Source: an uncultured Pseudomonadota bacterium (GTDB lineage Bacteria > Pseudomonadota > Gammaproteobacteria > Burkholderiales > SG8-39). From it: a DNA stretch of 64,000 nucleotides. The stretch covers positions 1 to 64,000 of the forward strand of contig CAILKO010000008.1 in NCBI GenBank assembly GCA_903834835.1. Direction: 5' to 3'. The translations under genes were made by a program, and so were the position numbers. Below, piece after piece: positions 42,408 through 44,740 of the stretch; the first letter of the stretch is position 1; every line of letters starts with the position of its first letter. The notes beneath the pieces are model-generated. The model made no database searches, was not told the DNA's origin, and saw only the letters and a program-made list of their open reading frames with translations.

Positions 42408-43691
42408 TTATAGGCCGGCCCGGGACGGACCTGCGACGCTGTCGATCTGACCGTCTGCAAGGATCGTGGTCAGGCGCTCACCTTCCGCTATGGCTCCTGC
42501 ACGGGTAACGACGGAACCCGATTCGCCTAGCGTGATGCTGTATCCGCGCGCGAGCACTGCCCGCGGATCCAGTCCTGTGAGACCAGTCTGCGCCCGAACG
42601 ACGCGGCCGCCGACGTTTCGTATCAATCGATCGGTCCCTGAAGAAAGCCGCAGCGAGGCGCGTGACAGGCGGTATGCGAGCAAGTCAAGCGGACGGGAAG
42701 CCGACGCGGCGAGACGGGCGTACAGCTGTCCGAGCATGCTGGCCGATTGTCGCAGTCGCTCCGCAGGATGAATCAGACGACGAGAAAAACTATCGACTGA
42801 TTGCATTGCATAGTCCAGGCGGCGCCCCATTTCGCGCGCGAGACTCCACGCGAGTCTGCTCAGGCGCGCGCGGACCTCAGTCGCGTCCGGGACTGACAGC
42901 TCCGCTGCGGCTGTCGGCGTGGGTGCACGCAGATCGGCTGCGAAATCCGCAATCGTGAAATCGGTTTCGTGCCCGACACCGACGATCACCGGAATTCTCG
43001 AGGCGCGTATCGCACGCGCCACCTCGGCCTCGTTGAACTGCCAAAGATCCTCGATCGAGCCGCCGCCACGCACCAGCAGCAACACGTCGCACTCGTTACG
43101 GCGGCTTGCATTCGCCAGCGCGTCTGCGATCCGCTTTGCCGCGCCTTCGCCCTGCACGGGCGTCGGGTAAACGATGACGCGGACGGCCGGGTTGCGCCGC
43201 CGCAGACTCGTCAGGACATCGTGCAGCGCAGCGCCTGTGGGAGAAGTGAGCACCCCGACCGAGGCCGGGTGTTCGGGCAGGGGCCGCTTGAGGGTCGCGT
43301 CGAACATGCCTTCTCGCGCGAGGCTGTCCTTGAGGCGCAGGAAGCGCTCGTATAAGGGACCAAGTCCCGCGCGACGGACGGCCTCCACCTGCAGTTGGAA
43401 GCGTCCGCGCGGCTCGTAGAGCGTCGGCAGGGCGCGTACCTCAACGCGAACCCCATTTTTCAACTCGGAACCGGCTGCGGCAGCTCGGCTGCGATACAGG
43501 ATGCAGTCGACCTGTGCCTGCTCATCCTTCAGGGTGAAATAGCAGTGCCCGGAGGTCGCGCGGCTGAAGTTGGATATTTCACCGCTGACCCAGGATAGTG
43601 GCAGGCGGTTCTCGAGGACCAGGCGGGCCTCTCGGAGCAGCGCGGAGACTGTCAACACTGCTTGCCAGCGGCCTGCGGAAAGTTCATCCAT
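42408..43691 (-). CDS. xseA: Exodeoxyribonuclease VII large subunit
   Basis: A 427-residue XseA. The N-terminal OB fold has SALLREARLVLENRLPLSWVSGEISNFSRATSGHCYFTLKD; the catalytic region has GVLTSPTGAALHDVLTSLRRRNP and the nuclease motif LLVRGGGSIEDLWQFNEAEVARAI; a coiled C-terminus ends LARGYSITLGESGSVV. The enzyme degrades single-stranded DNA with XseB. I start at MDELSAG (43691). The gene faces a long AT-rich upstream region with DnaA boxes. Confidence 0.95.
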   Translation of the reverse strand: MDELSAGRWQAVLTVSALLREARLVLENRLPLSWVSGEISNFSRATSGHCYFTLKDEQAQVDCILYRSRAAAAGSELKNGVRVEVRALPTLYEPRGRFQLQVEAVRRAGLGPLYERFLRLKDSLAREGMFDATLKRPLPEHPASVGVLTSPTGAALHDVLTSLRRRNPAVRVIVYPTPVQGEGAAKRIADALANASRRNECDVLLLVRGGGSIEDLWQFNEAEVARAIRASRIPVIVGVGHETDFTIADFAADLRAPTPTAAAELSVPDATEVRARLSRLAWSLAREMGRRLDYAMQSVDSFSRRLIHPAERLRQSASMLGQLYARLAASASRPLDLLAYRLSRASLRLSSGTDRLIRNVGGRVVRAQTGLTGLDPRAVLARGYSITLGESGSVVTRAGAIAEGERLTTILADGQIDSVAGPSRAGL

Positions 43692-43711
43692 ATCGGGCCC
43701 GCAATTTACAC

Positions 43712-43720
43712 TAATCCACA
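43712..43720 (+). promoter_or_regulatory. DnaA-box-like 9-mer
   Basis: TAATCCACA differs from the consensus TTATCCACA at one base. It is 20 bases upstream of the xseA start. Confidence 0.4.
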
Positions 43721-43877
43721 ACGATGCATGGTTTCCTGCAGCGCACGGTCTGGAGCGCGTGCGGATCCTGATTCTTTGACGTAATCATCTGTTCTACTTC
43801 GATAAATTACTGGTCAATTTTTGATCGGTACCGAATTACGATACGCGCCACGACTCATCGGACGTGCTGTTCAACGA

Positions 43878-43886
43878 AAATCCACA
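43878..43886 (+). promoter_or_regulatory. DnaA-box-like 9-mer
   Basis: AAATCCACA differs from the consensus at two bases and lies four bases before the perfect box. Confidence 0.35.
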
Positions 43887-43889
43887 AAC

Positions 43890-43912
43890 TTATCCACAAC
43901 TTTTGTGGATAA
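43890..43912. promoter_or_regulatory. Pair of perfect inverted DnaA boxes
   Basis: TTATCCACAA and TTGTGGATAA form a perfect 10-bp inverted repeat with CTT between. Each half contains the consensus DnaA box (TTATCCACA and its complement). Strong DnaA binding is expected. Confidence 0.75.
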
Positions 43913-44104
43913 CGCTGCTGGCGTCGCGTGACGCGCTGCGAAACGCATCAAAAAGAATACGCTGTAGCTATCTAGTGCAATTGCCGAAAGCGAAAGGAAA
44001 ACTTGCTGTGCGGCGGCGCATTGGATAAATTTCGCGCACACTAAACCACGCGGAACCGGTGCCCAGCGACGGTCCATCGCAGCACGGTTCCAGATAGAAG
44101 CGAG

Positions 44105-44740
44105 ATGTTTGCAATCATACAAGCGGCCGGCTGGCCGATCTGGCCACTTCTGCTCACCTCGGTAATCGCGGTCGCTTTGATCATCGAACGCGCCGTCACC
44201 TTGCGTGAATCCAAGGTTACGCCGAGCGGTCTCCTGGATCAGGCGGTGTCAGCCTATACATCGAACGGCCTGGACGAATCGATGCTCTCAAGGCTGGCGG
44301 CAGGCTCGCCGCTGGGGATCGTTTTGGCTGCGGGGCTGCGTAACCACAAAAGCTCGCGTTATGTCATGAAGGAGGCGATCGAGGAGGCTGGTCGCGCCGT
44401 TGCGCACGATCTCGAGTGCTTCCTGACTACCCTGGGTACGATCGCTACCGCGTCCCCGCTCCTCGGTCTGTTCGGAACGGTCGTCGGAATGATCGAGATC
44501 TTCGGGTCCCAGTCGCCTGGTGGAACGAATCCGCAGCAGCTTGCGCACGGAATTTCGATCGCCCTCTACAACACCGCTTTCGGGATTGCAATCTCTATAC
44601 CGTCGCTGATCTTCTACAGGCACTACAAGAACAAGGTGGACGGCTTTGTGGTCCAGATGGAGCAGGCTGCCGCCCGTCTCGTCGACACCGTGCATGGCGA
44701 GCGTGTCGAATTCCAGAATTCGCCGCGAGGCCAGGGCTAG
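44105..44740 (+). CDS. exbB: MotA/TolQ/ExbB family proton channel
   Basis: A 211-residue proton-channel subunit with three membrane helices. Conserved blocks are WPIWPLLLTSVIAVALIIERAVTLRE, the cytoplasmic helix AGRAVAHDLECFLTTLGTIATASPLLGLFGTVVGMIEIF, and the pore helix IALYNTAFGIAISIPSLIFYRHY. It works with ExbD and TonB to energise outer-membrane transport. Overlap/gap with exbD is two bases. The exbB symbol is by genomic context; TolQ is possible, but no tolR-tolA-tolB follows. Confidence 0.9.
   Translation: MFAIIQAAGWPIWPLLLTSVIAVALIIERAVTLRESKVTPSGLLDQAVSAYTSNGLDESMLSRLAAGSPLGIVLAAGLRNHKSSRYVMKEAIEEAGRAVAHDLECFLTTLGTIATASPLLGLFGTVVGMIEIFGSQSPGGTNPQQLAHGISIALYNTAFGIAISIPSLIFYRHYKNKVDGFVVQMEQAAARLVDTVHGERVEFQNSPRGQG

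Follow-up and report, generated by a model that had tools for sequence, protein, structure and literature searches.

The 64,000-nucleotide stretch of DNA analyzed here (the window) carries, between xseA and an exbB/tolQ-type gene, a cluster of three DnaA boxes that we regard with reasonable confidence as DARS-like (DARS, DnaA-reactivating sequence). Conservation strongly supports a functional role for the locus in DnaA binding, and the module that the three boxes form with Fis-like and IHF-like sites at set distances is probably the Burkholderiales counterpart of the DnaA-recharging sites of E. coli. Reactivation of DnaA by DARS is known from experiments in E. coli and from sequence in its relatives. 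Judged from the sequence, the core fits a DARS, and its location, its host group, and the order of its Fis and IHF sites differ from those of E. coli DARS1 and DARS2. A literature search, which is no proof of novelty, retrieved no xseA- or priA-linked DARS, no DARS in Burkholderia, and nothing that connects DnaA boxes to exbB, xseA, or priA.

The initial annotation had described an inverted pair of perfect DnaA boxes with CTT, two near-matches, and a stretch of about one-third GC between xseA and exbB, and all of these were recovered. The perfect 9-mers (TTATCCACAA-CTT-TTGTGGATAA) occupy 43890–43898 (plus strand) and 43904–43912 (minus strand). The near-matches are AAATCCACA at 43878–43886 (two mismatches) and TAATCCACA at 43712–43720 (one mismatch), all within ~200 bp, and the AT-rich stretch spans 71 bp (43772–43842) with 33.8% GC vs. 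63.9% across the window. The cluster lies between the divergent xseA, encoding the exodeoxyribonuclease VII large subunit (42408–43691, minus strand; TIGR00237, 432 bits; PF02601; PF13742), and a MotA/TolQ/ExbB-type proton channel gene (44105–44740, plus strand; PF01618, 100.7 bits). The probable ATG start of xseA is at 43691, with the frame open up to a TTG at 43721. The near box TAATCCACA (plus strand) is isolated at the 5′ end of this long frame, outside the conserved module, and no conserved counterpart of it was seen in the flanks of relatives.

The more informative parts, namely the exact spacing of a third box and a conserved flank, were overlooked in the initial annotation, which did not name a DARS-like class. 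The minus-strand sequence of the cluster is TTATCCACA-AAAGT-TGTGGATAA-GTT-TGTGGATTT, which corresponds to box I and an inverted box II separated by 5 bp, followed after 3 bp by box III. Box I (TTATCCACA; 43904–43912, minus strand) is inverted with respect to boxes II and III, and its place matches that of box I in DARS1 and DARS2. Box II is the perfect 9-mer on the plus strand (TTATCCACA; 43890–43898), and box III (AAATCCACA; 43878–43886, plus strand) deviates from the consensus at two positions, its TGTG half being kept at 97–99% in 104 loci. The 5-bp spacer is at 43899–43903 and the 3-bp spacer at 43887–43889, the latter equal to the spacing of the E. coli "double DnaA box" (PMC11317965).

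Single near-boxes were weakly above chance in the window (8 vs. 3.7 expected, with 6 of 100 shuffles reaching 8). The three-box layout was far above chance: none of 20 dinucleotide-shuffled versions of the window contained it, even with six mismatches allowed. When the 3.37-Mb host assembly (74 contigs, 88.9% complete) was searched with the 30-bp core pattern at up to three mismatches, this site was the only one retrieved (a second row of the search was the same palindrome on the opposite strand), and the reversed-pattern control gave 0. The layout is thus unique in the host genome, and the equally dense clusters elsewhere that the initial annotation had named as a ground for refutation were not encountered. 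Across 80 exbB-anchored loci, a scan of 13 × 9 spacing combinations identified the 5/3 spacing in 49 loci and any other in at most two. Perfect boxes in the same material numbered 78 in the 39 kb upstream of exbB vs. 5 in the remaining 456 kb.

Both E. coli DARS share this core. DARS1 (L121:308) reads TTATCCACT-ATTCC-TGTGGATAA-CCA-TGTGTATTA, and DARS2 (L124:836) reads TTATTCACC-TTTTC-TGTGGATAG-AGT-TGTGAAGAA. The cluster has the same three boxes with box I opposite to boxes II and III and with 5/3 bp spacing; in the literature, this spacing together with an oppositely directed box I is what DARS cores share (PMC5742627; PMC8682772). DARS1, in the bioD–uvrB intergenic region, agrees in box order, orientation, and spacing, with three mismatches to the consensus there and two here. 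It differs in gene context and, at 101 bp, is active without added proteins and needs no Fis; unlike the module in most relatives analyzed here, it has no IHF consensus near its core at one mismatch. DARS2, upstream of mutH, has the same core layout in a gene context that differs from xseA and priA. The exact DARS1 sequence was retrieved by the pattern in other genomes (e.g., G684).

In a comparison that covered selected DnaA-related regions of E. coli and not its whole genome, the 9-5-9-3-9 layout was absent at up to seven mismatches from the purH, polA, nrdA, nrdD, oriC/mioC, datA, dnaA, priA, and xseA–guaB regions. Since it is present at DARS1 and DARS2 and absent from the other tested loci, the layout separates DARS from the tested operators and origin sites. 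Several tested E. coli loci contain a tandem "double DnaA box", and the promoters of purH, polA, and nrdA share the tandem pair with a 3-bp gap (boxes II and III here; PMC11317965) but lack an inverted box I 5 bp away. No such layout was found upstream of xseA or priA in E. coli. Descent from the DnaA box of the E. coli xseA–guaB region was also considered and rejected, as the layout is absent there; in ChIP-seq, no binding was seen inside guaB (PMC11317965).

The distribution of the layout was examined in two sets of loci picked without regard to boxes, 58 by exbB and 28 by xseA. It was found upstream of xseA and on the xseA strand in 50 and 23 of them, respectively, and 0 times in shuffles. 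At the order level, the pattern (≤2 mismatches) occurred in 119 of 150 genomes, with 0 for the reversed control. It lay within 1.5 kb upstream of xseA in 51 of the 70 genomes for which both matches and xseA were listed, and all 54 matches near xseA were on the xseA strand (~0.07 expected by chance). The cluster is not tied to exbB, because the boxes are mostly absent where xseA is not beside exbB, and its assignment to exbB was rejected. In L096, L106, and L111, an extra stretch intervenes between the site and exbB, leaving the site with xseA. Synteny of xseA and exbB was kept and the layout lost in Accumulibacter-type and related loci (L072, L075, L076, L077, L084, and L093), several of which retain one perfect box.

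A second home was found beside priA, which adjoined the match in 25 of 59 genomes with a match elsewhere; all 26 of these copies were on the strand opposite to priA. Several more distant Gammaproteobacteria likewise carry the layout at priA. At the class level, 235 of 370 genomes contained the pattern at ≤1 mismatch (reversed controls, 0), and the pattern was rarer outside the class Gammaproteobacteria. Other gammaproteobacterial DARS-like cores, in L150, L151, L154, L155, L140, and L141, adjoin apparent xerC-like, proS-like, and rsmA-like genes, which were named from translations alone.

Beyond box III, the flank carries Fis-like and IHF-like sites at fixed offsets. Among the layout-bearing loci of the exbB-search and xseA-search sets (50 and 23, respectively), the IHF consensus WATCARNNNNTTR (≤1 mismatch) was located 82–88 bp beyond box III in 34 and 18 loci (control intervals, 0–1), peaking at 83–87, and the Fis consensus GnnYAnnnnnTRnnC (≤1 mismatch) 49–52 bp beyond it in 27 and 21 loci (control intervals, 0–3), with a sharp peak at 50–51. 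The sequences are from kin and are non-independent samples, and these counts show conservation and are not probabilities. No excess of IHF sites was seen beyond box I. The spacing recurred in other contexts and orientations, with IHF at 83–85 bp in the priA copies (24 counts over 30 flanks) and at 83–86 in mixed gammaproteobacterial contexts (22 counts over 37 loci). The window copy has a Fis-like site (GATCAAAAATTGACC; 43826–43812, minus strand) that matches the consensus exactly at offset 51 and an IHF-like site (GAACAGATGATTA; 43794–43782, minus strand) that is degenerate, with two mismatches at the expected offset of 83, where close relatives have AAACAGnnnnTTR. Both sites are enclosed by the AT-rich stretch. 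Two loci (L131 and L133) have the Fis-like site at 40 and the IHF site at 74, that is, ~10–11 bp shorter and with IHF at the offset seen in E. coli DARS2, and they may represent an intermediate spacing class. In xseA-linked loci, two further blocks are conserved between the core and the Fis-like site, CTAA (~16–19) and AAGGnnTTTTT (~33–43), at offsets 15–45 past box III (~43832–43862 in the window); they are possibly promoter or low-affinity DnaA sites.

The distance from the core to IHF was constant (interquartile range 83–85 bp) and that from the core to xseA variable (interquartile range 154–222 bp, SD 50); therefore, the unit comprises the core, the Fis-like site, and the IHF site and is not a promoter feature. 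This pattern favors a putative DnaA/Fis/IHF module over a simple operator. The operator reading, in which DnaA with IHF and Fis would tune transcription of xseA, and perhaps exbB, with the cell cycle, is the main rival, and we rate it as unlikely. It agrees with the position of the site in a divergent promoter region, always on the xseA strand, and with the second copy adjoining priA; several DNA-metabolism genes are under DnaA in E. coli, where DARS1 is upstream of the DnaA-repressed uvrB (PMC11317965). However, the distance from the core, measured to the start of xseA rather than to its promoter, ranged from 81 to 695 bp, and the element was ~3.3 and ~3.9 kb from xseA in G532 and G015, respectively. 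Relative to the adjoining gene, the element is oriented one way at xseA and the other way at priA, none of the examined E. coli DnaA operators has an inverted box I at 5-bp spacing, and a simple scan gave no sigma-70-like promoter. As the recurrent neighbors xseA and priA are DNA-metabolism genes, there is room for transcriptional control, and the element may combine a DARS role with regulation of xseA or exbB.

The DARS-like reading is further consistent with the gene content of the host. On the priA side (L113:7925-7945; G000:C25, upstream of priA), boxes II and III are kept and box I is eroded; an IHF site there matches the consensus exactly at offset 83, and a Fis-like site lies at offset 51. 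The module core is thus complete at one place in the host genome and partial at a second. The partner proteins are encoded as well. The host DnaA (contig C35) keeps the equivalents of E. coli D269, R285, L290, and R334, and the position of R227 is H. An Hda-type protein with the Hda lid is encoded beside purM (under the NCBIfam cut-off, over the Pfam cut-off), IHF alpha and beta are over their cut-offs, and a 79-aa Fis-family protein, under the equivalog cut-off, is encoded between dusB and purH (purM, dusB, and purH were named from translations alone).

DARS-like nucleotide exchange on DnaA is the likeliest function, and binding of DnaA, Fis, and IHF and release of ADP at the module are predicted from its sequence. 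ADP-DnaA remaining after Hda-dependent hydrolysis would bind boxes I–III, with the protomers on the inverted boxes I and II meeting head to head. Fis and IHF, at set places past box III, would bend the DNA; ADP would be released and the apo-DnaA reloaded with ATP. The level of ATP-DnaA would thereby rise before initiation, and the initiation capacity would be raised.

Several findings count against a DARS. Box III has two mismatches in the window, as does the IHF site, which has a set offset on the box III side in most relatives and is exact at the host priA copy. The order of the flanking sites is also unlike that of E. coli DARS2, whose footprinted IBS1-2 lies on the box III side at offsets 58–86 by sequence scan, with IHF sites at 58 and 74; the site at 74 has the orientation of the IHF site here and is about one helical turn nearer the core. 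The essential Fis sites of DARS2 lie past IHF, whereas the Fis-like peak here lies between the core and IHF, so the element was not filed as DARS2. Conservation of the DARS2 flank is mentioned in one review. The position of DARS matters in E. coli. In single-contig relatives (genome lengths rounded), the xseA element and dnaA were separated by 0.08 to 0.46 of the chromosome, and a fixed replichore position was not supported.

On a broader view, which we consider evenly balanced, an old DnaA–Fis–IHF module would be spread across the GTDB class Gammaproteobacteria, which includes the betaproteobacteria, frequently as two copies on one chromosome, with usual homes upstream of xseA and priA, and E. 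coli DARS1 and DARS2 would be relocated or derived copies. If the DARS-like assignment is correct, such a module is present at predictable places (xseA and priA) in Burkholderiales and many other Gammaproteobacteria, and the sameness of the ATP/ADP-DnaA cycle far from E. coli becomes directly testable. It also raises the question of why DARS-like sites settle beside repair and restart genes (uvrB, mutH, xseA, and priA).

A site for DnaA titration or datA-like ATP hydrolysis is improbable. The combination of clustered high-affinity boxes and an IHF site resembles datA, which also needs IHF, but the essential boxes of datA all point in one direction (PMC5742627), boxes I and II here are inverted at constant spacing, and the three-box layout was not found at datA; three boxes are also few for titration. 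A chance cluster, which is at odds with the shuffles and refuted by conservation, has a negligible probability, as does an RNA or terminator element built on the inverted repeat, for which the palindrome could form a hairpin; neither would account for a third box and a distant IHF site that stay constant. No Rfam match and no terminator-like site in a scan were found, and both candidates were rejected.

The initial annotation had observed that such sequence occurs in origins and in DnaA-regulated or titration loci. Conservation upholds the general part of this interpretation, a functional DnaA-binding locus, and the origin part is contradicted. A replication origin, to which DnaA boxes adjoining an AT-rich stretch would be suited, is extremely unlikely at this site. 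The earlier remark that no dnaA–dnaN genes are near was correct, as these genes are on another contig (at ~C35:435 kb), where the interval between the two carries DnaA boxes and an AT-rich stretch. The GC-skew check proposed in that annotation gave no sign change near the cluster, the skew being positive almost throughout the window, and dnaA is far from the element in single-contig relatives. The sign change was found at the dnaA–dnaN genes of C35, where the skew shifts from ~−0.03 to ~+0.1. In this intergenic region (L112:6924-7153; G000:C35), which is the probable oriC, an AT-rich stretch is followed by several DnaA boxes.
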